From Idiomarina sp. (lineage in GTDB: Bacteria; Pseudomonadota; Gammaproteobacteria; Enterobacterales; Alteromonadaceae), in contig JAIUMU010000002.1 of assembly GCA_022565355.1 (NCBI GenBank), positions 1 to 64,000 of the forward strand: a stretch of 64,000 bases of DNA, read 5' to 3'. How positions within the stretch are numbered: the first letter of the stretch is position 1; every line of letters starts with the position of its first letter. Positions 7,526 through 51,954 of this stretch are shown one piece after another. The notes below the pieces were generated by a model. That model did no database searches. It was given only the letters and a program-made list of their open reading frames with translations, and was not told the origin of the DNA. The position numbers were made by a program, and so were the translations under genes.

Positions 7526-8154
7526 GCTGGATAATTGGTATTTCCGCATTAGCACTCATGGCCCTGATTGCCGGCCTTATTCTTGGCTTTGCCGCGATCC
7601 GCTTTCGGGTGGAAAGTGACCCTATCGTTGAGCAAATCGATAGTATTTTACCGCAAACCCAGTGTGGCCAATGCGGCTATCCAGGTTGTCGCCCATACGC
7701 AGAAGCGATAGCCAATGGCGATGAGTTAAATAAATGCCCTCCAGGTGGCCAAGCTACCATTGATAAGTTGGCGGATTTACTGGGGCGCGAAGCAAAACCC
7801 TTAGATGCCGCGCATGGTGAAGAAGATATTAAGAAGGTTGCGATAATCCGCGAAGACGAGTGTATTGGCTGTACCAAATGTATTCAGGCGTGTCCGGTAG
7901 ATGCCATTCTAGGAGCTACCAAGCAAATGCATACGGTAATCGCCGATGAATGCACGGGTTGCGATTTATGCGTAGAACCCTGCCCCGTAGATTGTATCGA
8001 TATGGTTCCAGTAGAGCCTAAGCCTGAACGCTGGAAGTGGCAGTTAGAGCAAATCCCCATTGTAGAAATGAATCACTTAGCTGAGCTTGGGCAAACTCAA
8101 GCTAATGGCAGCAACGAAGCAGAAACAACAAAACAGCAACAGGTGAATGGTTAA
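7522..8154 (+). CDS. rsxB: Electron transport complex subunit RsxB (RnfB), ferredoxin type
   Basis: This 210-residue subunit has one N-terminal membrane anchor (residues 1-25), then a four-cysteine cluster motif CGQCGYPGC plus a later Cys (about residues 50-75). Two 4Fe-4S ferredoxin motifs follow: [12 protein letters not shown] and [12 protein letters not shown]. It passes electrons from the RsxC side to the membrane subunits. The polar Q/N-rich tail after the last cluster is not conserved. ATGA overlaps join it to rsxA and rsxC, so the operon is translationally coupled. Confidence 0.97.
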
Positions 8155-10130
8155 TGGCAATTGAAATTACCGCAACAAGCCGGCTGTGGAATTTCCCAGG
8201 AGGTGTTCAACCTGATGAACGGAAATCTCCAGCCAACTTGCAGCCCATTCAACGGTTTCCATTGGCACCCATGCTATATATTCCGCTGCGCCAACATGCC
8301 GGTGCGGCAGGTGAGCTATGTGTTGCAGTAGGTGATTATGTATTAAAAGGCCAACCGCTCACCATACCTGGGGTTGATAATGGTTTACCTGTTCATGCCT
8401 CTACCTCTGGCACTATTAAAGCAATTACTGAGCACCCACTGAATCATCCTTCTGGGTTAAGTGGCCTCACCGTGCATCTGCAACCCGATGATCAAGATGC
8501 GCCGTATCCACATCAACCTATTGCCGATATTCATGCCATTAGCCAGCGTGAAGTACTCCAGCATTTACAACAAATGGGCATTGCTGGTCTTGGTGGTGCA
8601 GGATTCCCCACCGCGCGTAAGGTTGCCGGGGCGCGCAATATTGATGCCTTAATTATCAATGGCATTGAATGTGAACCTTATATTGTTGCCGACGATCGCT
8701 TAATGCGCGAACACGCGGCAAAAATTCTGCGGGGTTGTGAGCTACTGCAACAACTCACGAGTGCAAAAAGCGTTATTTTCGCGATTGAAGACAATAAGCC
8801 AGAAGCGATTAATGCAGTGGCCACTGCGATAGCCGAAACGAGCAGTACTACAATTGCCAACATCATTCTTAGAGTAATCCCCACCAAGTACCCATCGGGT
8901 GGCGAAAAGCAATTAATTCAAATTCTCACTGGCAAGCAAGTGCCAGCGAATGGCTTGCCCGCTGATATCGGCATTCTTATGCAGAATGTGGCCACAGCAT
9001 ATGCGGTGGCTCATGCCATTGATGTAGGCGAACCACTACTTGAGCGTGTGGTAACCTTAACAGGCGAAGCACTGCACCATCCTGGCACCGCATGGGCTCC
9101 ATTAGGCACACCAGTAGAGTATCTGTTACAACAATCAGGCTTTCAGCCCAGTAAACACCAGCGCGTTATTATTGGCGGCCCAATGATGGGTTACACCATT
9201 GCCAATCTGCAAGTACCGGTTACCAAAACTACCAACTGCATTTTAGCGCCCACAGCTTCTGAACTTACCCCAGCCGATGCTGAAATGGCCTGTATTCGCT
9301 GCGGCGCCTGTGAACAAGCATGCCCAGCATCGTTACTGCCACAGCAATTGTATTGGCACGCCAAGGCGCAGGATTATGATGCGTTAAAGCAACATCATAT
9401 TGTAGATTGTATCGAGTGTGGTATTTGCGCCTATGTATGCCCCAGCCAAATTCCATTAGTGCAGTACTATCGGCAAGCAAAAGCAGAAATCCGCGAGCAA
9501 GCAATTGAGCACCAAAAAGCGGAAATTGCTCGGCAACGATTTGAGGCCAGGCAATTACGCTTGGAGCGCGAGAAAGAAGAACGCCTTGAGAAGCACCGGC
9601 GCGCAGCAGAAGCTCGCAAAGCGGCGCAAGCGGCAAGAGCCGCAGAAGCCCCAACATCGCCATCAGCTGCAGATACCAAGCCTAGCGCTGGTAAAGGCAC
9701 TAACGCCGCTGTGCAGGCTGCGCTAGCGCGAGCAAAAGCAAAGAAAGCTGCCCAGGAACAACCGGATTCGAGCGCCAGTATAGGCCCAAGTGCCGCGGTA
9801 CAAGCCGCCATAGAACGCGCTAAAGCGAAAAAAGCGGCGCAAGCTGCGGCGCCTGAACAAGCTGAGCCCGTTGCAGATAAAGGCCCGAGCGCTGCGGTAC
9901 AAGCCGCCATAGAACGAGCCAAAGCGAAGAAAGCGGCGCAAGCGAATGCTGAATCTAGCCAGAGTGCAGAGCCAGCGCCAGAAAATAACACCCAAAGCGA
10001 TAAACAAGACGCTATCGCCGCTGCAGTAGCGCGCGCCAAGGCACGTAAAGCCGAGCGTGAGCAAGCGAAAGGTAATACCGAAAGCCAAAATAATGCAGCC
10101 GAAAACGAACGTAAAGGTAAGCAAAACTGA
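8154..10130 (+). CDS. rsxC: Electron transport complex subunit RsxC (RnfC)
   Basis: RsxC is the NADH- and FMN-binding peripheral subunit of the complex (658 residues). Residues 1-440 form the conserved part: the glycine-rich GIAGLGGAGFPTARK nucleotide-binding region and two 4Fe-4S motifs, CIRCGACEQACP and CIECGICAYVCP. From about residue 450 there is a long charged helical region, then an Ala/Lys-rich tail with three near copies of the motif AAVQAAIERAKAKKAAQ (DNA 9696-9943) and a diverged fourth. Such tails are common in gammaproteobacterial RsxC and vary in length between strains. The ATG overlaps the rsxB stop and the stop overlaps rsxD. Confidence 0.97.
   Translation: MAIEITATSRLWNFPGGVQPDERKSPANLQPIQRFPLAPMLYIPLRQHAGAAGELCVAVGDYVLKGQPLTIPGVDNGLPVHASTSGTIKAITEHPLNHPSGLSGLTVHLQPDDQDAPYPHQPIADIHAISQREVLQHLQQMGIAGLGGAGFPTARKVAGARNIDALIINGIECEPYIVADDRLMREHAAKILRGCELLQQLTSAKSVIFAIEDNKPEAINAVATAIAETSSTTIANIILRVIPTKYPSGGEKQLIQILTGKQVPANGLPADIGILMQNVATAYAVAHAIDVGEPLLERVVTLTGEALHHPGTAWAPLGTPVEYLLQQSGFQPSKHQRVIIGGPMMGYTIANLQVPVTKTTNCILAPTASELTPADAEMACIRCGACEQACPASLLPQQLYWHAKAQDYDALKQHHIVDCIECGICAYVCPSQIPLVQYYRQAKAEIREQAIEHQKAEIARQRFEARQLRLEREKEERLEKHRRAAEARKAAQAARAAEAPTSPSAADTKPSAGKGTNAAVQAALARAKAKKAAQEQPDSSASIGPSAAVQAAIERAKAKKAAQAAAPEQAEPVADKGPSAAVQAAIERAKAKKAAQANAESSQSAEPAPENNTQSDKQDAIAAAVARAKARKAEREQAKGNTESQNNAAENERKGKQN
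9696..9943 (+). repeat. Tandem repeat in the RsxC C-terminal tail
   Basis: Three copies of a unit coding for (S/N)AAVQAA(I/L)(E/A)RAKAKKAAQ begin near 9696, 9783 and 9882 (periods 87 and 99 bp). The second and third copies are nearly identical over about 62 bp at DNA level, pointing to recent duplication or gene conversion. A more diverged fourth copy follows near 10010. Confidence 0.8.
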
Positions 10131-28384: not shown

Positions 28385-29287
28385 TCACCGCAAGTTGGCG
28401 ATTAATTCAACAACTTGCTCAGGTTGCTGCATATGCACATGATGGCCACCTTCAAGATGGTGCACCTGCAATTGTGGAACATATTTCTGCCACATCGCTA
28501 CGGCTTGTGCTAACGCTTTTGTACCTTCGGTACCCATAATAAGCTGCACCTTGCACTGTATACGCTTCAACATATCGATTGCATTCGCTTCTGTAAAGCG
28601 AAACGCCGATGCTACTCGCACACGCGGATCTATCCGCCAAGTAACACCATTTTCTACGTGCTGAATATTGCGTTCAATAATTAAACGCGCCAGCGGCTCG
28701 CTCAGTTCACTTTTCTCTGCTCGTAACTTTACTAATCGTTCAGTATCGGGATAAATAGGAGCCCGCTTTTCTGCAAGGCGTTTGCGGTCTTTCAGGGCTT
28801 GCGCTAAATGATCAACTACATCACCTTCCGTGCTTACCCAAAGCCCAAACGCCTCTATTAACGTTAGCTTTTCTATTCGCTCAGGGCAAACTGCAGCTAC
28901 TAATTGGGCCACATAACCACCCATACTGTGGCCAACTAAATGCACATTAGATAAGTTTTCCTGTTCTAGAAATGCCACAACATCAGCAACATATTCAAGA
29001 AAATAATACCACGTGCCCGGCGCGCGATGGCCAGATAGGCCATGGCCGGCAAAATCCAGCGTACGCCAATGGGTAGGCGGCAAATGCTGCCCTAAAAACG
29101 GCTGTAGCGGCAAAAAGCTATTAGCATTATCAAGCCAACCGTGTAACGCCACTACAGTACTGATGTCTTCGCTAGTTGCGCTCGGCGGCAAAGTTTTGGA
29201 GCTGCCAAAAGAATGCGGGCCGCCACTCGTAAAAGTATGCAGGCCCGCAAGTTGAATATGGTCTAAATCAACTACAAATTCATTCAA
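28385..29287 (-). CDS. Alpha/beta-fold hydrolase
   Basis: The 300-residue protein has a nucleophile elbow GHSMGG (VHLVGHSMGGYVAQL), an oxyanion-region motif ALHGWLDNANSF and a late catalytic His in EGGHHVHMQQPEQV. These place it among alpha/beta hydrolases of the MhpC/esterase group. No signal peptide is visible. Its start overlaps the 3' end of the slp gene by 8 bp, and it lies between slp and fadD, a position where marine gammaproteobacteria often have such a hydrolase. A lipid or ester substrate would fit its neighbours but is only a guess. Confidence 0.88.
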   Translation of the reverse strand: MNEFVVDLDHIQLAGLHTFTSGGPHSFGSSKTLPPSATSEDISTVVALHGWLDNANSFLPLQPFLGQHLPPTHWRTLDFAGHGLSGHRAPGTWYYFLEYVADVVAFLEQENLSNVHLVGHSMGGYVAQLVAAVCPERIEKLTLIEAFGLWVSTEGDVVDHLAQALKDRKRLAEKRAPIYPDTERLVKLRAEKSELSEPLARLIIERNIQHVENGVTWRIDPRVRVASAFRFTEANAIDMLKRIQCKVQLIMGTEGTKALAQAVAMWQKYVPQLQVHHLEGGHHVHMQQPEQVVELIANLR

Positions 29288-29987
29288 TCTCTACTCTCTC
29301 CGGTCTAGTTGCCTCTCTTGGAGGCCGCGATTGACGATCGTTGCGTTGTTGCTGAGTGGGTTGTTGCTGAGTAGGTTGTGGCTCAGAACGTTGCGTAGCA
29401 CGACGACGCGGCGCAGGCTGCATCACCGGCGTGTAGGGATAGTAATACGGGTGTACTCGATATGGCCCAGCTCCGTACATGTACCAACGATAGCGTGGTG
29501 AATAAACATCATAGCGCCAATCATTCGCACTCGGCTGAGGTTCTCGCCATAATTCAGTACCAGTGGCGCGAATTACTGGAAAATCAAAATTGTATTCGCC
29601 AATCGTGCCACTTTCCATGCCCGTATATGTACCTAACACGGTAATTATACGGCCTTTAGAATACACTTCTGGATCTACAAACCCACTGATGATCACACGG
29701 AAACGACCATAGGAATTATCATTCACTTCTGGCCGACCAAAACTACGGGTTCTGAAACCAACAATCTCTAACTCTGAAGCATTTTCGCGATTGCGTACTT
29801 CTGCAATTACACCACCCCAACGCACCTGCTCGCCAATTTTTTCTTCACTGGCGGCTTGCACCTGATCATAGGTAGTAAGTGTACTGCCATCACCACGAAT
29901 AGATTCCGGTAATTGCGAGGCACAGCCCGAGAGTGCAAGGGTAACTGCACCAAGCAAACAGGCTTTATACAACAATTGAATCTTCAT
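29280..29987 (-). CDS. Slp/YeaY-family outer-membrane lipoprotein
   Basis: The 235-residue protein has a lipoprotein signal peptide with lipobox LSGCAS (about residue 22). The Slp-domain motifs are GEQVRWGGVIAEVRN, LEIVGFRTRSFGRP, GRFRVIISGFVDPEVYSKGR and ITVLGTYTGMESGTIGEY. In E. coli Slp is starvation/stationary-phase induced and YeaY lies beside fadD and tsaB, the same position as here. The C-terminal 80 residues are unusual: a Tyr/Pro-rich patch (YYYPYTPVMQP), then a Q/R/P-rich disordered tail with a QPTQQQPTQQQ repeat. Confidence 0.92.
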   Translation of the reverse strand: MKIQLLYKACLLGAVTLALSGCASQLPESIRGDGSTLTTYDQVQAASEEKIGEQVRWGGVIAEVRNRENASELEIVGFRTRSFGRPEVNDNSYGRFRVIISGFVDPEVYSKGRIITVLGTYTGMESGTIGEYNFDFPVIRATGTELWREPQPSANDWRYDVYSPRYRWYMYGAGPYRVHPYYYPYTPVMQPAPRRRATQRSEPQPTQQQPTQQQRNDRQSRPPREATRPERVEIE

Positions 29988-30800: not shown

Positions 30801-32840
30801 TTAATTATTTTCACAGGTAATTGGCGGCGCTTTAGTTACAGCTGAAGGCTCTTTATCATGCGCTGAGGGCTCTTTGTTCTTCGCTGAAGGCTCTTTACCT
30901 AAAGCTGCAGGCTCTGGCACCGCGGCCAAAAAATCGAGTGCTTTTTGCAGCGAGCGAGTGCGGGCCATATCCGGTAAGCTGGCTAAAAAAGTAGTGCCAT
31001 AACCTTTGGTTACTAAGCGGTTATCACCCACAATAAGCACGCCGCGATCCGTAACATCTCGCACCAAGCGTCCAGCCCCCTGCTTCATTGCAATTACGGC
31101 CTGGGGAATCTGAATACTGGCAAACGGATTACCGCCCTTCATTTTACAATCTTCTACCCGCGCTTGCAGCAATGGTTCGTCTGGCGATGTAAAGGGTAGC
31201 TTATCAATAATCACGCAGCTAAGGGCATCACCGCGCACATCCACCCCTTCCCAGAATGAACTGGTACCCAGCAGTACGGCATTACCCGCTTCCACAAACT
31301 GGTTTAATAGTTCACGTTTACTACTTTGCCCTTGCACCAGCAGCGGCCTATCAATTACACCCAATAAATTCGTAGCCAGTTTCTGCAGCATACGGTGGCT
31401 CGTAAACAACACAAAGGTGCCGCCACGGTTCACTGCTACTACTTGCTTCACAATATCAGCCAATGCATCCGCCATGGCCGGTGAATTCGGTTCTGGTAGA
31501 TAACGTGGCAAACACAGCATGGCCTGCTTTTGGAAATCGAACGGGCTATCTAAAATCAAGGTTTTAGCGTTTTGTAAGCCCAGCCGTTCATTAAAATAAT
31601 CGAACGAGCCCTCTACCGTAAGCGTTGCCGAGGTAAACACCCAGCGCGCGTCTTGCTCTGCGAGTTGGCGACCAAAAGGCTCGGCTACTGAAAGCGGTGT
31701 GCGATGTACAGTTAAGTGCCGCTGCGAGGTTTCGTACCAATAGCTGTAACCGGTAACGTGCGTATTCAGCAGCAAATCCCAGCGCTTACGAATCAACTCC
31801 AAACGCTCTAAGCACTGATCAAGGTCTTTATCACGCCCTACTAAGCCCTTACAAATGGCCTGTGCACGGCTAATTAACTCAGCTAAATGGGTGCTCGCTT
31901 TGGCAGTTTCATCATGGTGGAGCGCATCGCGCCAATTACTGCGTTCTGGATCCAGCGGAAAATTCAGCCGCAAATCTCGCGCCGCACGATCCAGCTGGTC
32001 AGCAATTTGTGAAAGGGCTTTGGCATCCCGCACCACTGTTTTGTAGAGAAACTGCAAATCTTTGCATAGTTCCACAATGGCGCGCGTAGATACCGTATCG
32101 CTAAAGTATTGGCTGGCAATATCAGGAAGTTGGTGGGCTTCATCAAATACCACAATATCGGCTGCCGGAATTAGCTCGCCAAAACCGGTATCTTTCAGCA
32201 CTAAATCGGCGCAAAACAAATGATGATTTACCACCACAATATCGGCTTCTAAGGCTTCTTTGCGAGCCTGAACCAAATAACAATCTTCATACTGAGGGCA
32301 TTCACGCCCTAAACAGTTATCAATGGTACTGGTAACCCGAGGCAACACTTGTGCATCTTCTGGCAAAGTTGCAAGTTCACCTAAATCACCTGTTCTAGTT
32401 TTATTCGCCCAATCACGCACTTCTTGCAGTTGCGCCAGCACCTTGCTATCCGCATCTGCAGGATGGCGAATGGATTGCTCTAAACGGTTTAAACATAAAT
32501 AATTGGAGCGCCCTTTCAACAAAGCGGCAACTGCTTGTGGCGCCAGAGCATCACGCAGCTGAGGTAAATCTCGGTGAAACAACTGTTCTTGTAAGTTACG
32601 CGTGCCCGTGGAAAGAATCACTTTCGCTCCACTGCCAGCTCGGCAACGTAATAAAGCCGGGGCTAAGTAAGCGAAGGTTTTACCCGTGCCGGTTTCAGCT
32701 TCCACCACCAGTTGATCGCCTGCTTTATCAAGCGCAGCAATAGCTGCAGCCATTTCTTGCTGGGCTGGGCGGGGTTGAAATCCGGGTAACGCTTTGCTGA
32801 GTGCCCCACCCGAGCGAAAAACTGCGGTAACCTCTGACAT
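30801..32840 (-). CDS. yoaA: ATP-dependent DNA helicase YoaA (DinG/XPD family)
   Basis: The 679-residue XPD-like 5'-3' helicase has Walker A AETGTGKTFAYLAPALL, a four-cysteine Fe-S cluster region around NCLGRECPQYEDCYLV, the DEAH box in VFDEAHQLPD and late motif VI QGAGRLVRD. In E. coli YoaA works with HolC in replication-fork repair. The C-terminal 35 residues are atypical: a tandem KEPSA-type heptapeptide encoded by a 21-bp DNA repeat that also occurs in dnaX. It is the first gene of the yoaA-tsaB-slp cluster, divergent from a histidine kinase gene. Confidence 0.95.
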   Translation of the reverse strand: MSEVTAVFRSGGALSKALPGFQPRPAQQEMAAAIAALDKAGDQLVVEAETGTGKTFAYLAPALLRCRAGSGAKVILSTGTRNLQEQLFHRDLPQLRDALAPQAVAALLKGRSNYLCLNRLEQSIRHPADADSKVLAQLQEVRDWANKTRTGDLGELATLPEDAQVLPRVTSTIDNCLGRECPQYEDCYLVQARKEALEADIVVVNHHLFCADLVLKDTGFGELIPAADIVVFDEAHQLPDIASQYFSDTVSTRAIVELCKDLQFLYKTVVRDAKALSQIADQLDRAARDLRLNFPLDPERSNWRDALHHDETAKASTHLAELISRAQAICKGLVGRDKDLDQCLERLELIRKRWDLLLNTHVTGYSYWYETSQRHLTVHRTPLSVAEPFGRQLAEQDARWVFTSATLTVEGSFDYFNERLGLQNAKTLILDSPFDFQKQAMLCLPRYLPEPNSPAMADALADIVKQVVAVNRGGTFVLFTSHRMLQKLATNLLGVIDRPLLVQGQSSKRELLNQFVEAGNAVLLGTSSFWEGVDVRGDALSCVIIDKLPFTSPDEPLLQARVEDCKMKGGNPFASIQIPQAVIAMKQGAGRLVRDVTDRGVLIVGDNRLVTKGYGTTFLASLPDMARTRSLQKALDFLAAVPEPAALGKEPSAKNKEPSAHDKEPSAVTKAPPITCENN
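30841..30917. repeat. 21-bp tandem repeat in the 3' end of yoaA
   Basis: Three 21-bp units begin at 30841, 30862 and 30883, each starting GCTGARGGCTCTT followed by 8 variable bases. A diverged last unit GCTGCAGGCTCTGG begins at 30904. On the coding strand they give EPAA then EPSA heptapeptides. The same unit, including the same diverged end copy, occurs in dnaX at 50039-50157. Confidence 0.9.
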
Positions 32841-36204: not shown

Positions 36205-37575
36205 ATGCCACAGTTAAATACAGCAATTCCACAGCCAGTAGTTTGGCAGCAAGCCACGGCTGAGCAGCAACAAAAGCTGTTAGATCGCCCAGTGCAAGCT
36301 GTTTCAGAACAGCTGCAACAGCAAGTGCGCGATATTATTGGCCAAGTAGCACAGCAAGGTGATAGCGCCTTGCTTGCCCTTACCAAGCGCTTTGATGGAG
36401 TAGATCTTACTAGCCCTGAGTTACCGTTAGAACGCGTAGCAGCAATAGCGGCGCAAACACCGGCCAACGTGAAAGCGGCTATCGATCAAGCATACAATAA
36501 CATCCGTATGTTTCACCTAGCACAACAGCCGGAAGATATTGCGGTAGAAACCATGCCAGGTGTACTTTGCCAACAGAAATTTGCGCCGATGGCACGGGTG
36601 GGTTTATACATTCCCGGTGGCAGCGCAAGCTTACCCAGCACCGTATTAATGCTGGGAATTCCGGCACAAATCGCTAATTGCGCCGAGCGCGTGTTGATAA
36701 GCCCTCCCGCTAAAGCCGGTGTTCATGCAGGCGAACTCACTCCAGCCATCTGTTATGCCGCTATTAAATGTGGTGTTACCGGTGTATATCTGGGTGGTGG
36801 CGCGCAAGCCATTGCCGCACTTGCATTAGGTACCGAGAGTATCCCTGCGGTAGATAAAATTTTTGGCCCTGGTAATAGTTATGTTACTGAAGCCAAACAG
36901 CAAGTAAGCCAACGCGCCGGTGGCCCTGCTATTGATTTACCAGCGGGCCCTTCAGAGTTATTAATTATTGCCGATGATAGCGCCGAGCCGGCATTCGTGG
37001 CCGCAGATCTCCTTTCCCAAGCAGAGCATGGCCCCGATTCCCAAGTAATTTTATTAAGCCCATCCGCAGCTTTAGTAGATGCTGTACGCGTAGAGCTTGC
37101 AAGACAACTGGCCGCCTTACCGCGCGTAGAAATAGCTACCCAAGCGTTGGCAGCCAGCGCCCTGATCATTACCGCAGATTTAGCCGAAGCGGTGGCTATC
37201 AGCGAAACCTACGCACCAGAGCACTTAAGTGTGCAGCTTAGCGATGCGAATACTTGGTTACCAAAGTTAACCCGCGCGGGGTCCATTTTTGTTGGCCACT
37301 ACACGCCAGAATCAGGGGGCGATTACGCCACGGGTACGAATCACGTGCTACCAACCTATGGTTTTGCGCGCAATTACAGCAGCCTAGGTTTGCTCGATTT
37401 CTATCGCCGCTATACCGTGCAAGAAGTAACGCCGCGTGGGCTCGCAAATCTTGGCACTAGTATTATTGATTTAGCGGCTGAAGAAAGCCTAGATGCGCAC
37501 TTACGTGCCGTTTCATTGCGTTTAGATAGCCAACGTTTTCTGCAGGATATTGCACTAGTAGAGGGCAAACCATGA
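36205..37575 (+). CDS. hisD: Histidinol dehydrogenase HisD
   Basis: HisD is a zinc-dependent NAD+ enzyme that oxidises L-histidinol to histidine in two steps, the end of the pathway. The 456-residue product (E. coli 434) has the signature region [31 protein letters not shown], the zinc/active-site segment [11 protein letters not shown] and [12 protein letters not shown] with the catalytic Glu-His. The N-terminus is a little longer and Gln-rich compared with E. coli. Its stop overlaps the hisC start by 4 bp (ATGA). Confidence 0.97.
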
Positions 37576-38762
37576 GCACCACATTCGTGCAAGATTTGCT
37601 TCGTGAGCACTTAAAAACATTTACGCCCTATGCATCAGCGCGGCGTTCTATGAGCGGCGGTAATCTTTGGCTAAATGCCAATGAATCGCCCTATGGCCGC
37701 AACTATCAAGTGGCTACCGAAGAGCTGAATCGGTATCCCGATTTTCAGAATAAACCACTCAATCAAGCCTATGCGGAATACGCAGGCGTTACCGCGAGCC
37801 AAGTTATTAGCCACCGCGGTAGTGATGAAAGTATTGAGCTGATGATCCGCAGCTTTTGTGAGCCGGGCCGGGATAAAATTCTGATTTGTCCCCCTACTTA
37901 CGGGATGTATGCGATTTCTGCATCAATCAACCACAACGAAACCGTTGCGGTGCCGTTGCGCGCCAATGATTGGCAACTCGATTTAGCAGGCATAGAGCAA
38001 GCACTGGATGCCGCTAATGGCGCTATTAAAGTAGTGTTCTTGTGTAATCCCTCGAACCCACTTGGCAACCCACTGCGGGAAGCCGATATGCTTGCCGTAA
38101 TCGAAATGTGCCAAGGCCGCGCGCTCGTAGTAGTGGATGAAGCCTATTTCGAGTTCTACCAAGAAACCGCGCAGAGATCGGGGTCAGTGAGCACGGTGTC
38201 TGACACCGTCGTCTCTGACACCGCCCTCACTGACCCCAATCTTCAAGCCAGTGTAAGTATGCTGCGCTACTTACCGAAGTTCGAGAACTTGGTGGTAATG
38301 CGCACGCTTTCGAAAGCCTTTGGTTTAGCGGGTATTCGTGTGGGCTTCACGATTGGTTCTGAAGCGTTGGTACAGGCATTGCTGCCGGTATTGGCGCCAT
38401 ATCCATTGCCGGATATGAGTGTGCAAATCGCGCAGCAGGCGCTGCGCCTCGATGATCGGCTGAAAACCCGGCAAGATACGATAGAAATTGTCGCTGAGCG
38501 TAACTTACTGGCCGCAGAACTGGTAAAATTCCCTTGGGTAGAACAAGTGCATGCAAGTGTTACCAACTTTATCCTCATTCAGGTACGCAACGCAGATGCG
38601 CTGATGCAGCATTGTATTGCCCAAGGCGTACTGATTCGCAATCAATCGAGCCAACTTGGCCTTAGCCAAGCAATTCGCATTACCGTAGGTAGCCCCGAAG
38701 AAAATATTGAGCTACTACGTGTACTTGCCAGCTTTCAACCCGCAACAGAGGAGCTCGCCTAA
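37572..38762 (+). CDS. hisC: Histidinol-phosphate aminotransferase HisC with in-frame repeat insertion
   Basis: HisC is a PLP enzyme converting imidazole-acetol phosphate to histidinol phosphate. Family motifs are [45 protein letters not shown] and the PLP-lysine motif [16 protein letters not shown]. The product has 396 residues against 356 in E. coli. Most of the excess is about 27 residues after [12 protein letters not shown], where residues 202-223 ([20 protein letters not shown]) are encoded by a 66-bp REP-like palindrome. The insert falls between the PLP-binding Asp/Tyr motif and the lysine motif, evidently in a loop that tolerates it. Overlaps with hisD and hisB show the gene is in normal operon register. 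Confidence 0.96.
38176..38241. repeat. REP-like palindrome inserted in hisC
   Basis: Outer arms are GATCGGGGTCAGTGAG (38176-38191) and CTCACTGACCCCAATC (38226-38241), pairing over 16 bp with one mismatch. Inside lies a 15-nt palindrome CGGTGTCTGACACCG and a second TCTGACACCG copy. Length is 66 bp (22 codons), so the frame is kept. GGGGTCAG-type palindromes are known as REP/RAYT-associated repeats in many proteobacteria. Confidence 0.8.
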
Positions 38763-46403: not shown

Positions 46404-48320
46404 TCACAGAGCTAGCATGAGCTTGTTCAAGCGGCGAACAAAGGTACTTGGGTCTTTCAAGCTGCCGCGCTCCGCTAACGTAGCCTGTTCAAGCAACAAT
46501 TCCGCCCACTCACCAAAGCGTTCTTCATCTTGCTCATCAGCCACGCGCTGCACCAATGGATGCTCAGGGTTCAGCTCAAAAATGTACTTCGTTTCTGGTA
46601 CTTTTTGCCCTGCTGCTTCCATCAACTTCGCCATTTGCGTGCTCATATCGTTATCATCGGTAACAATACACGCAGGTGAATCGGTTAACCGGTGTGTTAC
46701 CCGAACCTTCTTCACTTTATCGCCTAAGGTTTTCTCAAAGCGCTGCACGGTTCCTTCAAAATCCTTCTCCAGCTTCTCGTGCTCAGCCTTGTCTTGCTCA
46801 TCATCCAGATCGCCTAAATCTAAATCGCCACGGGTAACCGATTGGAATTTCTTCTCTTTGTACTCGGTTAAGTGGCTCATTAGCCATTCATCAATACGAT
46901 CTGAAAGTAGCAACACTTCCACGCCTTTCTTGCGGAAGATTTCCAGTGCTGGGTTGTTTTTCGCCGCTTCATAACTATCAGCAACAATATAGTAAATCGC
47001 CTCTTGGCCTTCCTTCATGCGCTCAATGTAGGCATCTAAAGAAACGCGCTGCTCAGCGCTATCTTCATGAGAAGAAGTAAAGCGTAACAGTTCGCAAATG
47101 CGCTCGATGTTCGCTTGGTCTTCCGCTGGGCCTTCTTTCAATACGTTACCAAAGTTATCCCAGAAGCTGTTGTATGCTTCCACATCATCTTTGGCTAACT
47201 TCACTAGGCTTTGCAGCACTTTTTTCGTGCTCGCACTGCGCATAGCCCGGGTTACTTTATTATCCTGCAAAATCTCCCGCGAAACATTCAGCGGTAAATC
47301 ATTAGAATCAATTAAACCACGCACAAAGCGCAGGTAAGTAGGCATAAATTGTTCCGCATCGTCCATAATGAACACGCGTTGCACATAAAGCTTAATACCT
47401 TTCTGGTTCTCTCGGTTCCACAAATCCCAAGGCGCCCGCTTTGGAATGAACAACAAGCTGGTGTACTCGTGTTTACCTTCAACTTTGTTGTGGCTCCACA
47501 GCAACGGATCATCAAAATCATGTGCTACCGATTTATAAAACTCTTGGTACTCTTCCTTGCTAATGTCTGCTTTTTCACGCAACCACAAGGCTTTACCGGC
47601 ATTTACGGTTTCCCATTCACCCGGCTGCGCAGGAATTTTCTCGCCATCAGGGCCATCGCGCTCAGGCTGCTCATCCTTCCACATCTGCACAGGAATACTC
47701 AGATGATCAGAGTACGTTGTTACAATCTCGCGCAACTTCCAATTATCTAAAAATTCATCTTCACCCTCACGCAAATGCAGGGTGATTTCCGTGCCACGGC
47801 CTTCTTTGCTAATCGGTGCAATGGTAAATTCGCCATCGCCTGCAGATTGCCATTCTACCGCTTCATCTTTACCTAGCCCGGCTGCGCGAGTGCGCACCGT
47901 TACTTGATCAGCAACAATAAAGGCCGAGTAAAAACCCACCCCAAATTGGCCAATCATCTGTGAATCTTTGCTTTGGTCGCCAGAAAGCTGGCTAAAGAAT
48001 TCTTTGGTACCCGATTTAGCAATGGTGCCCAAGTGGCTCATTACATCCTCTCGGCTCATACCAATGCCATTATCACTAATGGTAATGCTGCGCGCGTCTT
48101 TGTTAATGCTAATCCGCACCCGTAACTCAGCATCATTATCGAACAGTGCATTATTTTCTAACGCTTTAAAGCGCAGCTTATCGGCTGCATCCGAAGCGTT
48201 GGAAATAAGCTCACGAAGAAAGATATCCTTATTCGAGTACAGCGAATGGATCATCAAGTGCAGAAGCTGCTTTACCTCTGTTTGAAAACCGTGTTTTTCA
48301 GCATGCTGATGGTCAGCCAT
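46404..48320 (-). CDS. htpG: Molecular chaperone HtpG (Hsp90)
   Basis: HtpG is the cytosolic bacterial Hsp90, an ATP-driven homodimeric chaperone. The 638-residue protein (E. coli 624) has the GHKL ATP-binding motifs [24 protein letters not shown] and [15 protein letters not shown], the middle-domain [16 protein letters not shown] signature, an acidic stretch near [15 protein letters not shown] and the C-terminal dimerisation domain. A sigma-32 promoter is visible 45-75 bp upstream and AGGAGAG precedes the ATG, so heat-shock induction is expected. Confidence 0.98.
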
Positions 48321-48393: not shown

Positions 48394-48421
48394 GGTAAAC
48401 AGAGAAATTTGTGGGGTTTTG

Positions 48422-48480
48422 TGGCTTACTTTGCGGGTTAACTTAGGGGCTTAACTCAGCGGCTTAACTTGGGGCTTACA
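48422..48480. repeat. Short imperfect tandem repeat between recR and htpG
   Basis: Four to five copies of a 12-14-bp unit resembling GGCTTAACTYRG follow each other between the recR stop and the htpG promoter. The copies vary and no gene is present. It could be a slippage product with no function. Confidence 0.55.
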
Positions 48481-48521: not shown

Positions 48522-49127
48522 TTACAAGAAGTTCTTGCGGCCAGAGAAAGCATGGCCAAGGGTAGTATGGTCTACATATTCAAGCTCACCGCCCACCGGC
48601 ACGCCGTGGGCAATTCGGCTCGCGCGAATTTGATAGCGGGCAGCTAAATCAGCAATGAAATGCGCGGTAGTATCCCCTTCCATGGTTGGATTCGTGGCTA
48701 AAATCACTTCTTGAATAGCATCGTTTTGAAAACGTTGCTCGAGTAAATCAAGGCCGATATCCGCAGGGCCAATGCCATCCAGCGGCGATAACCTGCCCAT
48801 CAATACAAAGTATTGCCCTTTGTATTGGCCGGTTTGTTCAACCGCTAATACATCCGCTGGCGATTCAACAATACATAACGAGCCTTCAGCCACTCGGCTT
48901 TCATCAGCACAAATACCGCAAATATCATCTTCGCTCAGAGTTCGGCATTTACTACAGCGCCCCACAACCTCCAAGGCATGCGCTAAAGCATGCTGAAGTT
49001 TACCGGCACCATCACGATGGCGTTCCAATAACTGGAACGCCATGCGTTGTGCGGTTTTTTGGCCTACTCCAGGAAGCACTCGTAGTGCTTCGATTAGAGC
49101 AGCAATCGCGGGGCTAAACGCTTTCAT
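48522..49127 (-). CDS. recR: Recombination mediator protein RecR
   Basis: RecR works with RecF and RecO to load RecA on SSB-coated gaps. The 201-residue protein (E. coli 201) has the helix-hairpin-helix [14 protein letters not shown], a four-cysteine zinc motif [16 protein letters not shown] and a Toprim domain ([14 protein letters not shown]). The ATG overlaps the ybaB stop by one base (TAATG), the usual ybaB-recR arrangement. Confidence 0.98.
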
Positions 49128-49545: not shown

Positions 49546-51954
49546 CTAGTGCAACACCGTTACTTGCTTCACTTCAGCTGCTAAAGACGATTGCAGTTGT
49601 TGAATACCCGGATGCTCGGCAACCCGTTTTTCTGCATCTGCTTGCAGTGCTGCATTAATTTCTTGCTGAATTTGAAATGGTGTCCGCTGCGGATTACCGA
49701 GCTTGATTTCCAGCTCTTTGTTGGCAATCACGGTCGCCAATTCATTTTTAATACTCGCGTTCATGTGCCCCGATAACAGCGCCTGCATGTCTGCAGATAC
49801 CTCTAGTACGTAGCCTTGCGGTTGCTCATGCAACTGCGAGTGCAACAATACTTGCCGCGTACGCCCCACAACTGCTAGCTTTTCAATCTGCGCTGCCCAA
49901 GCATCTACTTGCGCCGCTGCAATAACTTTACCGCTAGTTGTTTGTTGCACATCGGCGGCTGTTTCGGTTGCGGGTTCTTGCTCGTTAGCTGGTTTAGATG
50001 CCAACACTGGCTCGTGAGTTTCGCCCGTTTGTTGCGGCGCTGAAGGCTCTTGTTTCACAGCTGAGAGCTCTTGTTTCACGGCTGAGGGCTCTTGCTCTAC
50101 CGCTGAAGGCTCTTGTTCTCCCGCTGAAGGCTCTTGTTTCACAGCTGCGGGCTCTGCAGAAGCTTGCGGCGCATTCAGCGGCGCTTTATTCGTATTTGGT
50201 TTGCTTACTACGGCATCGGTTGCTGTAGCAGGTTTACTCGCCACAGAAGCTGATTCAGAGCCTTTCTTGGCCGCTAAACGCTTGCGGGTTGCCATCAATG
50301 AGGTTAAATCAGCGCTCTCTAACGATGGCGCAGCGCTGCTTTCTGGTGCAGCTCCTGCAGATACTGATGCTGAGGATACTGCGGTTGTTGCTTCAGGCTC
50401 AGCCGCTGGGCGTACCGCAGAAGCTTGCTGCTCAATACCCGCTTGTTCTGCAAACAATGCCGCCGAATCATCATCGTCTTCATCATCATCTAAATATGCA
50501 GGTACTTCGTGTTCTTCCACTGCAGAGTTCACGAATGGCTGGGCGCTTGCAGGTTGTTCCGCTTCAGCCTCTTTGCTCGCCGCTACCGGCGCGTCCGGTT
50601 CTGCTGCGGCTTGTTGCTCGGCTTCAGGTTGCATGGCTTCCGGCTTCTCGGCTGGCTGCTGCACTGCTTCTGCCTGTGCCCTTTCCTGCTGCACGATCGC
50701 GGATTCTACCTGGGCCGTGCTTTCAGCAGGCTCTGCCTTTACTTCGGCTTCAGCCTCGGCCATGCCTTCAGCAACACTAACTGTCTCCGCCGCTTTTACC
50801 GGCGAACTGGTTACCGCTTCAGGCTTTCCCGCAGTGGGTGCTCCCGAGCTACTTGTTGCATCAGCTACCGCCGGCCGAAACGCCAACATCCGCAGCAGGG
50901 TCATCTCAACGCCGCTGAAGGCATCCGGTGCATAAGGCAACTCACGACGGCCATCGAGCACGGTGCGGTAATACACTTGCACCGTAGCTGGGTCAATTTT
51001 CTGAGCTAATGCCGCCAATTGTTCGCTTCTTGCCAACAGTTCAGAATCCAACAACGCTGGAGCAACCTGGGCCAGCGCCAACTGGTGTAGCATGGTTTGC
51101 AATTCAGTAAGCACGCCCGCGATATCCGGAATCTTATCCACTAACTCACGCAGCGATTGCAGTGTCGCATTCACGTTACCATCGGCTACCGATGCCAGTA
51201 AATCGAGCAAATTGGCATGATCGATTCTACCCAGCATACGAGCAACCGAGGCTTCGAGTACTTCATTATTACCTTGGGCGATAGCCTGATCCGTAAGGCT
51301 TAACGCATCGCGCATACTGCCATTGGCAGAACGTGCTAAAAGCGCTAGAGCTGATTCATCAAAACGGATTTTTTCGGCGGTTAAAATATGCTGCAGTTGC
51401 GTACTAATTTCCTCACGGGTAAGTGCCCGCAGATTAAATTGCAAACAACGGGAAAGCACAGTAACCGGAAGCTTTTCTGGATCAGTAGTGGCCAGCAGGA
51501 AAATAACATGGGGAGGTGGCTCTTCTAGCGTTTTTAATAACGCATTAAAACTATGCCGCGAGAGCATATGCACTTCATCGATAAGGTAAACTTTATAGCG
51601 CCCAGCGGTTGGCCGATACTGTACGTTCTCGAGAATTTCCCGGGTGTCTTCTACTTTGGTGCGAGAAGCGGCATCGATTTCCATTAAATCAACAAAACGG
51701 CCAGCTTCGATATCAACACAGGCAGAACACTCACCACAAGGTGTGGCGGTAATACCTTTATCACAGTTCAAGCTACGCGACAAAATTCGAGCGATCGTAG
51801 TTTTACCAACACCACGGGTGCCGGTAAGTAGGTAGGCATGATGCAAACGCTGATGCGTTAATGCGTTGGTAAGTGCTTGCAACACATGTTGCTGGCCAAC
51901 AACTTCAGAAAAGTTACGCGGCCGCCATTTCCTTGCTAGCACTTGATAGCTCAT
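49546..51954 (-). CDS. dnaX: DNA polymerase III subunit tau/gamma with expanded linker
   Basis: DnaX is the clamp-loader ATPase and replisome organiser. Residues 1-370 are the clamp-loader AAA+ core: Walker A TGTRGVGKTTIAR, a zinc module CDKGITATPCGECSAC, DEVHMLSRHSFNALLKTLEEPP and sensor-1/SRC CLQFNL. The protein has 802 residues against 643 in E. coli. The excess is a low-complexity Ala/Glu/Pro linker (about 380-690) that contains the 21-bp EPSA repeat also found in yoaA. The last 110 residues match tau domain V (alpha-subunit binding). I found no A AAA AAG slippery site like the E. coli one, so a gamma form by frameshifting is not evident. Confidence 0.97.
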   Translation of the reverse strand: MSYQVLARKWRPRNFSEVVGQQHVLQALTNALTHQRLHHAYLLTGTRGVGKTTIARILSRSLNCDKGITATPCGECSACVDIEAGRFVDLMEIDAASRTKVEDTREILENVQYRPTAGRYKVYLIDEVHMLSRHSFNALLKTLEEPPPHVIFLLATTDPEKLPVTVLSRCLQFNLRALTREEISTQLQHILTAEKIRFDESALALLARSANGSMRDALSLTDQAIAQGNNEVLEASVARMLGRIDHANLLDLLASVADGNVNATLQSLRELVDKIPDIAGVLTELQTMLHQLALAQVAPALLDSELLARSEQLAALAQKIDPATVQVYYRTVLDGRRELPYAPDAFSGVEMTLLRMLAFRPAVADATSSSGAPTAGKPEAVTSSPVKAAETVSVAEGMAEAEAEVKAEPAESTAQVESAIVQQERAQAEAVQQPAEKPEAMQPEAEQQAAAEPDAPVAASKEAEAEQPASAQPFVNSAVEEHEVPAYLDDDEDDDDSAALFAEQAGIEQQASAVRPAAEPEATTAVSSASVSAGAAPESSAAPSLESADLTSLMATRKRLAAKKGSESASVASKPATATDAVVSKPNTNKAPLNAPQASAEPAAVKQEPSAGEQEPSAVEQEPSAVKQELSAVKQEPSAPQQTGETHEPVLASKPANEQEPATETAADVQQTTSGKVIAAAQVDAWAAQIEKLAVVGRTRQVLLHSQLHEQPQGYVLEVSADMQALLSGHMNASIKNELATVIANKELEIKLGNPQRTPFQIQQEINAALQADAEKRVAEHPGIQQLQSSLAAEVKQVTVLH
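50039..50157. repeat. 21-bp tandem repeat in the dnaX linker
   Basis: Five 21-bp units start at 50039, 50060, 50081, 50102 and 50123, each GCTGARGGCTCTTGYT plus variable bases (one has GAGAGC). A diverged end unit GCTGCGGGCTCTG begins at 50144. The coding strand gives EPAA then EPSA/ELSA heptapeptides. Unit, period and terminal copy match those in yoaA. Confidence 0.9.

Follow-up and report, generated by a model that had tools for sequence, protein, structure and literature searches.

Two genes in a 64,000-nt stretch of Idiomarina sp. DNA (contig JAIUMU010000002.1, positions 1 to 64,000; hereafter the window), the DNA repair helicase gene yoaA and the DNA polymerase III gamma/tau gene dnaX, contain short tandem arrays with a common core. 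We think it probable that both arrays belong to a dispersed minisatellite family characterized by the core AGAGCCYTCAGC (reverse complement GCTGARGGCTCT), followed by a base that is rarely A, and by short spacers, mostly of 5–14 bp. The family is common in Aliidiomarina and its relatives, where it occupies many genes that are unrelated to one another, uses each stop-free frame and runs in either orientation; it apparently occurs outside genes too. The core is kept while the spacers and the Y position change fast, and close species differ by whole units. The motif appears to spread and persist as DNA, not as a protein motif, and our verdict is that the family is a dispersed, fast-changing, DNA-level minisatellite, largely intragenic and distributed across genera.

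The arrays in yoaA and dnaX and further copies in the genus

The first array lies at the 3′ end of yoaA (30801..32840, minus strand; NCBIfam NF053712, 888 bits against a cut-off of 680). It occupies 30826..30917 on the minus strand, trailing spacer included, and has four units at 21-bp steps, three AGAGCCYTCAGC and, at the 5′ coding end, one AGAGCCTGCAGC. Exact GCTGARGGCTCTT is found at 30841, 30862 and 30883, followed by GCTGCAGGCTCTG at 30904; on the coding strand the units run AGAGCCTGCAGC, AGAGCCTTCAGC, AGAGCCCTCAGC, AGAGCCTTCAGC. The NF053712 match stops at residue 638 of the 679 in YoaA, and the array, at residues 642–672, encodes EPAALGKEPSAKNKEPSAHDKEPSA. The second array, at 50038..50157 on the minus strand, lies in the linker between domains III and V of dnaX (49546..51954, minus strand; Pfam and NCBIfam), where it takes up residues 600–639 and encodes EPAAVKQEPSAGEQEPSAVEQEPSAVKQELSAVKQEPSA. 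Its six units, again at 21-bp steps, are four exact cores, one AGAGCTCTCAGC and, at the 5′ coding end, one AGAGCCCGCAGC, placed at 50039, 50060 (one mismatch), 50081, 50102 and 50123, with GCTGCGGGCTCTG at 50144; the coding-strand order is AGAGCCCGCAGC, AGAGCCTTCAGC, AGAGCCTTCAGC, AGAGCCCTCAGC, AGAGCTCTCAGC, AGAGCCTTCAGC.

An initial annotation of the window had proposed that the two genes have a 21-bp repeat in common, and this is borne out. Tandem Repeats Finder (TRF) detects both arrays, and at up to two mismatches the unit has 12 matches in the window, 10 in the arrays and 2 elsewhere, against a mean of 2.5 and a maximum of 6 in 100 dinucleotide shuffles. The annotation's further claim of matching units must be narrowed to the 12–13 bp core, AGAGCCYTCAGC on the coding strand, and the 21-bp step. 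Between the two genes the 9-bp spacers agree at 5 of 9 positions at best, a level that 90% of 2000 random trials equalled or surpassed; the spacers are therefore no more alike than random ones, and the suggested copying of whole units between yoaA and dnaX is not supported. A terminal variant had also been described as common to both, which is true of its core, where the same-side end unit (30904 and 50144) has TCA changed to GCA and so encodes EPAA, and not of the adjoining spacers, which differ. The period of 21 bp likewise describes both window arrays and not the family at large, in which 18 and 21 bp are common, 24 bp occurs, and 16, 17, 20, 22 and 25 bp are found where no long frame spans the array.

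The same annotation had preferred a shared DNA element to independent low complexity and had named a genome-wide search for further copies as the check; such copies are present, one of them reversed relative to its gene. In the assembly to which the window belongs (2.72 Mb in 14 contigs, 95% complete), a pattern search located a third array at 161933–161966 of contig C2. It is antisense to its gene, in which it encodes the end of a short protein, AEGSCHQAEGSS. The match of that protein to BcsR is weak, below the cut-off, and the gene lies immediately ahead of one that by eye looks like bcsQ. A diverged array in the same genome encodes EPSAQGEQPSAFGKEPVAQSEQPTA at the start of MurJ. The reading as a shared element is also upheld in the taxonomic family, where pairs of cores with any gap up to 30 bp are present in 56 of 295 genomes, compared with 1 of 295 for the reversed control.

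Within the genus, 7 of 17 genomes match at 21-bp spacing with up to three mismatches (control 0), and the hosts differ by species: an FtsY-type GTPase, LptA, DnaX, a DnaE-type polymerase (antisense; presumably DnaE2), BcsQ (antisense), an 890-aa protein and a presumably SatD-like protein, the last two with no Pfam match. DnaX arrays occur in five Aliidiomarina genomes (G000, G001, G003, G004 and G010) and FtsY arrays in four (G001, G002, G003 and G015), with none in 13 others. Orthologues in other Aliidiomarina are array-free for YoaA (7 of 7 readable), MurJ (16 of 16), LptA (16 of 16) and the DnaE-type polymerase (14 of 14 retrieved). A seed core with up to two mismatches was absent from the homologous stretch in all 14 DnaE-type, 16 MurJ, 16 LptA, 13 FtsY and 7 YoaA sequences; the best core matches there have 3–5 mismatches, though the species are divergent enough that a recent seed is possible. 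Over 371 kb of Aliidiomarina DNA, TRF reported 27 arrays, and the core is in five of the eight with a period of 18, 21 or 42 bp. Single cores in these 371 kb number 1 against 0.5 expected (reversed control, 1 against 0.1), and 13 other cores are in arrays.

Distribution, reading frames and hosts

When spacing is fixed at 21 bp and up to two mismatches are allowed, pairs are found in 19 of the 295 genomes of the taxonomic family (control 1 of 295). Class-wide, 21-bp pairs occur in 7 of 369 genomes, the window's own among the seven (control 0 of 369). In the phylum of Longitalea, which we take to be Bacteroidota, the single match among 296 genomes is the centre genome itself, which has simple repeats of its own; at three loci of Longitalea luteola, dispersed simple repeats of the GCCTTCAGCCTTGAG type mimic the core.

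A scan of 84,980 species genomes for the exact 21-bp pair returned at least 118 stretches, mostly from Gammaproteobacteria by title. Among the matches listed are the genera Halomonas, Marinobacter, Microbulbifer, Alloalcanivorax, Exilibacterium, Shewanella and Alteromonas, and 19 of 118 lie outside Gammaproteobacteria (by title, with three titles naming only Proteobacteria or Pseudomonadota counted inside). The pairs outside may be due to chance, which is underestimated when bases are treated as independent because tandem copies are not. The samples of 20 and 24 genomes behind the descriptions of spacing and spacers in this study were picked for carrying arrays and hold no frequency information.

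The viral collection yielded only two stretches with the exact 21-bp pair, on which account carriage by phages is rejected. One viral contig (L197, 1–9833) has the same DNA core, with GEPSAECGEPSAECG in a 274-codon frame.

Five frames of the core are usable, since one of the six contains TGA, and all five are used. By longest stop-free frame, the first 80 loci comprise 28 EPSA, 27 AEGS, 15 SPQ-type, 5 LKAL-type and 5 RALS-type. Under a stricter frame rule applied to the 126 arrays in 118 loci among the matches listed, 78 arrays are clear and gammaproteobacterial (40 EPSA, 22 AEGS, 12 SPQ, 3 LKAL and 1 RALS), 8 more are clear outside Gammaproteobacteria and 40 are unclear, so that 86 of the 126 have a clear open frame. 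Named hosts include LptA, MurJ, BcsQ, the FtsY-type GTPase, an alpha/beta hydrolase, an amidohydrolase and a pyridoxal phosphate (PLP) enzyme.

In one Pseudomonadales metagenome-assembled genome (MAG), EPSA, LKAP (antisense) and GALS are read in long frames, whereas the frames for AEGS and SLQ are short, at 68 and 89 codons. Spacing in its frame-spanned arrays is in multiples of three. The longest frame does not run through three further arrays, which are irregularly spaced (16, 17, 18, 22, 24 and 25 bp) and probably do not code for protein.

Turnover and a sister core

Core and spacer change at very different rates. In 127 triples from 21-bp arrays, each with exact outer cores, the middle core differs at 1.2% per base and the spacers at 24%; the 19 triples from antisense 21-bp arrays alone give 1.0% and 33%. 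Base 12 is rarely A (3% of 199 units; 5% in 42 arrays), and Y is C or T about equally, but identical in 62 of the 70 adjacent pairs listed. Spacers are alike within arrays and unlike between most arrays. There is nevertheless a weak consensus, BRRNAAA, among the 18-bp spacers of 42 arrays from many genomes, and one MAG has many loci with a nearly identical spacer.

Six of the seven array loci fetched from Alteromonas genovensis were compared with Alteromonas sp. LOR: those of a SPOR protein, a PLP enzyme, an alpha/beta hydrolase, an amidohydrolase, one protein with no Pfam match and one other. Flanks of five queries are 92–97% identical. Arrays differ in length at four sites, by 42 bp (2 × 21, plus a 3-bp indel), by 36 bp (2 × 18), by 75 bp (3 × 18 + 21) and by one 18-bp unit, the last being a site with five against six units and a net difference of 15 bp; the other two sites are of equal length. 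In the equal-length hydrolase arrays 21 of 65 spacer bases and 7 of 66 core bases are changed, 4 of the latter at Y and 3 among the 60 non-Y bases, as are 14 of 200 bases in the 3′ flank, the only flank compared here because an indel spoils ungapped counts on the 5′ side. The other equal-length pair has changes at 4 of 14 spacer, 1 of 33 core and 11 of 200 flank bases. By these counts, arrays change more quickly than the DNA around them, and the core is for the most part retained. The LOR arrays also hold decayed cores such as TAGCCTTTAGC.

A tandem array of NSPERSV heptads in a solute-binding protein of the window's genome led to a sister core, CAGCCYTGAGC, which is the first core, GAGCCYTCAGC, with positions 1 and 8 exchanged. 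Of 196 genomes in the taxonomic family, 29 have pairs of the swapped core (control 0 of 196), and the window's genome has four such sites. The frame is clear in 16 of 22 swapped-core arrays, all of them sense (14 NSPE-type, 2 TALS-type), and unclear in 6, several of these with spacing of 16, 17 or 20 bp. The list from 295 genomes (up to two mismatches, 21-bp spacing) has 12 exact arrays with G and C at positions 1 and 8 and no CC or GG doubles, and the swapped-core search shows eight CG arrays at 21 bp. Single-swap exceptions are a CC-type array in Pseudomaricurvus alkylphenolicus and, in Exilibacterium, a GG pair next to a GC array. Other pairs at these positions, in loci that were selected for the GC and CG types, are AT (3), GT (5), AC (2), TC (1), GG (2), CC (3), TA (0) and GA (0); all three CC pairs and one of the GG pairs belong to simple repeats of Oscillochloris and Longitalea. 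Judging from such simple counts, positions 1 and 8 seem to covary.

Elsewhere in the window, one near-match to the unit inside gene 48522–49127 (48878..48890, minus strand, one mismatch) forms no array and is probably due to chance, as single cores show no enrichment. A 26/13-bp tandem repeat (TTGGGGCTTACTCAGCGGCTTAAC) at 48419–48479, between genes 46404–48320 and 48522–49127, is without the family core. The protein of gene 8154–10130, presumably RnfC-like, ends in repeats such as KGPSAAVQAAIERAKAKKAAQ, by eye an ordinary coding repeat, and there are two short 15-bp repeats at 29345–29383 (gene 29280–29987) and 38199–38234 (gene 37572–38762).

Explanations and comparison with known repeats

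For a minisatellite propagated at the DNA level, unit number would change through slippage during replication or through unequal exchange, the 12-bp cores serving as the stretches that match, and events running from core to core would both enlarge arrays and preserve the core. Inside genes, only frame-keeping spacers would survive, mainly at flexible tails, linkers and loops, with selection acting mainly against frame loss and damage to folded domains; the hits in the DnaX linker, the FtsY N-region and the YoaA tail would follow from tolerance of flexible inserts. That the core recurs across many genera and hardly ever stands alone, that array-free orthologues have no seed and that a swapped-core sister family exists together suggest that some shared cellular factor recognizes or copies the core.

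Several observations weigh against this picture. The contrast between core and spacer is weaker in 18-bp arrays (38 triples: core 6.0%, spacers 19%), and all triple counts favour low core change through the requirement for exact outer cores and include mutually dependent triples taken from a single array. The analysis turned up no insertion intermediate, no target duplication and no enzyme. There is no clean empty site at high identity, all six Alteromonas sites being occupied in both species; a more distant relative has no array at one of the sites, although the region there is variable. With the window left out, the core is in only three of six TRF arrays of period 18, 21 or 42 bp, in regions picked near yoaA and dnaX. 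Host frames were assigned by longest stop-free frame. Finally, EPSA is the commonest frame and the clear swapped-family arrays are all sense (16 of 16), from which we take it that tolerance or preference at the protein level plays a part.

That protein-level selection should itself have made the arrays, EPSA heptads being a useful flexible or binding peptide, for instance of the replisome, that evolved repeatedly, we find hardly credible. EPSA does lead (40 of 78 clear cases), five Aliidiomarina genomes have an array in DnaX and many arrays are in tails or linkers; but the same DNA is read elsewhere as AEGS, SPQ, LKAL or RALS, it is antisense in the BcsR-like, BcsQ and DnaE-type genes, and its spacing is non-triplet where no long frame spans it. 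The replisome-binding peptide that the initial annotation had held as its second possibility is rejected for this diversity of frames and hosts, most named hosts being non-replication proteins. Expansion only in place, in which a core arises by chance and a host process duplicates the surrounding stretch in tandem with no copying between sites, is a possible account that we rate as somewhat unlikely. It would explain why spacers are alike within arrays and different between most of them, as is also described for the STAR elements of staphylococci (PMC3532100). The missing seeds in array-free orthologues lower its odds slightly, the species being divergent, and the BRRNAAA consensus across 42 arrays and the near-identical spacer at many loci of one MAG also speak against it.

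Another rival is a small mobile element that a dedicated enzyme copies between sites, akin to a pared-down REPIN or SDR. In its favour are the dispersal of sites across genera and in either orientation, whole-unit similarity between loci in one MAG and the lack of seeds; on the other side, no boundaries, inverted ends or target duplication were noticed, single copies are almost absent, only two viral stretches were found, the window arrays fold less well than shuffles and Rfam has no match in three loci. On balance we consider it rather unlikely. A cluster of binding sites for a DNA-binding protein with a regulatory or chromosome role, positions 1 and 8 covarying through a dyad (SAG-CC-YTS) read by a dimer, would fit a core that is nearly invariant with Y free to be C or T, and the commonness of GC and CG versions against the rarity of single swaps. 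Yet spacing ranges from 12 to 27 bp with no helical phase, and the sites are in unrelated genes and mostly unconserved between species, which makes such a cluster improbable; helical phasing at 21 bp in particular is rejected, as 18-bp and non-triplet spacing are common.

Other candidates were also set aside. The reverse complement of the core resembles GCTGGTGG, but a Chi or DNA uptake sequence is rejected because GCTGGTGG and GCTGARGG are not over-represented, and neither are single cores. Hairpin-driven expansion is unsupported: folds of the window arrays are less stable than those of dinucleotide shuffles, with z from +1.1 to +1.5, and a single array of the swapped core is mildly more stable (z −1.4 and −1.6). 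Rfam searches found no RNA family in three array loci. A CRISPR array would have long unique foreign spacers, and the spacers here are mostly 5–14 bp, alike within arrays and often in reading frames; no search for cas genes was made.

If the DNA-level minisatellite is the right reading, the tails and linkers of DnaX, FtsY, YoaA, LptA and MurJ were written by a DNA repeat, not by protein selection. Repeats in disordered regions are often taken for functional motifs, and in this family five unrelated peptides come from one DNA sequence. With its many arrays in different genes, its two sister cores and a close species pair with changed unit numbers, the family is a natural experiment on the seeding, expansion and upkeep of very short repeats in compact genomes, and the arrays may serve as strain-typing markers for Aliidiomarina, Alteromonas and relatives. 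The strongest hint that the core is recognized by something is the compensating exchange between positions 1 and 8. We tentatively propose, as a possibility short of an expectation, that an element conserved over only about 12 bases, in at least two forms, GAGCCYTCAGC and CAGCCYTGAGC, spreads in marine Gammaproteobacteria and builds arrays in genes by way of a factor that reads the dyad SAG-CC-YTS and promotes either duplication in tandem or copying; if true, it would be one of the smallest self-propagating sequences known.

Full-text literature searches, with most subscription papers outside their coverage, showed no such core and no intragenic repeat family using all frames among the matches listed. 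Among known repeats, the cyanobacterial SDR elements are dispersed, possibly mobile repeats of 21–27 nt that occur as single-unit insertions with conserved secondary structure; they are short and dispersed like the present family, which differs in its core-plus-spacer arrays. The window arrays have no stable fold, and positions 1 and 8 of the core seem to covary. In eukaryotic hypervariable minisatellites, unrelated loci share a short core within otherwise different units, a clear likeness, although those loci are non-coding and have another core. REP and REPIN sequences are described as palindromic, extragenic and linked to RAYT, some in ordered tandem clusters (PMC3116915). Short repeats, in part tandem, are thus found in both cases, the present ones being largely intragenic and the window arrays folding no better than shuffles. 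The TAACTGA direct repeats of marine Beggiatoaceae have a 7-nt unit and lie mainly in intergenic regions at many sites in patchy lineages, their transfer mechanism being reported as unknown (PMC4679880). They resemble the present repeats in being short, direct, patchy and at many sites; by the description available in that source, the core-plus-spacer build is found only here.

The tandem repeats of 20–21 nt in Bacillus are closer. Their size is constant, they are mostly non-coding and species-specific, and there are many arrays per genome with variation between strains (PMC8161180). As here, where the loci were selected by their core, a short sequence is kept in all repeats and the rest is variable; the present units, by contrast, are of 18, 21, 24 or a non-triplet number of bp, largely coding, and found across genera. 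The closest architecture is that of the STAR elements, which have a 14-bp core, T(G/A/T)TGTTG(G/T)GGCCC(C/A), with spacers of at least 40 bp, are intergenic and belong to one genus; their loci differ by species, expand and contract, and have locus-specific spacers, and the mechanism of spread is given as unknown (PMC3532100). Both families have a short core in direct repeats with spacers, loci that differ between species and changes in unit number. The present family differs in its core, AGAGCCYTCAGC, in its spacers of mostly 5–14 bp, in having 86 of 126 listed arrays in clear frames and in its many genera. We file it as a variant of interspersed core-and-spacer repeats that is a member of neither the STAR nor the Bacillus type.

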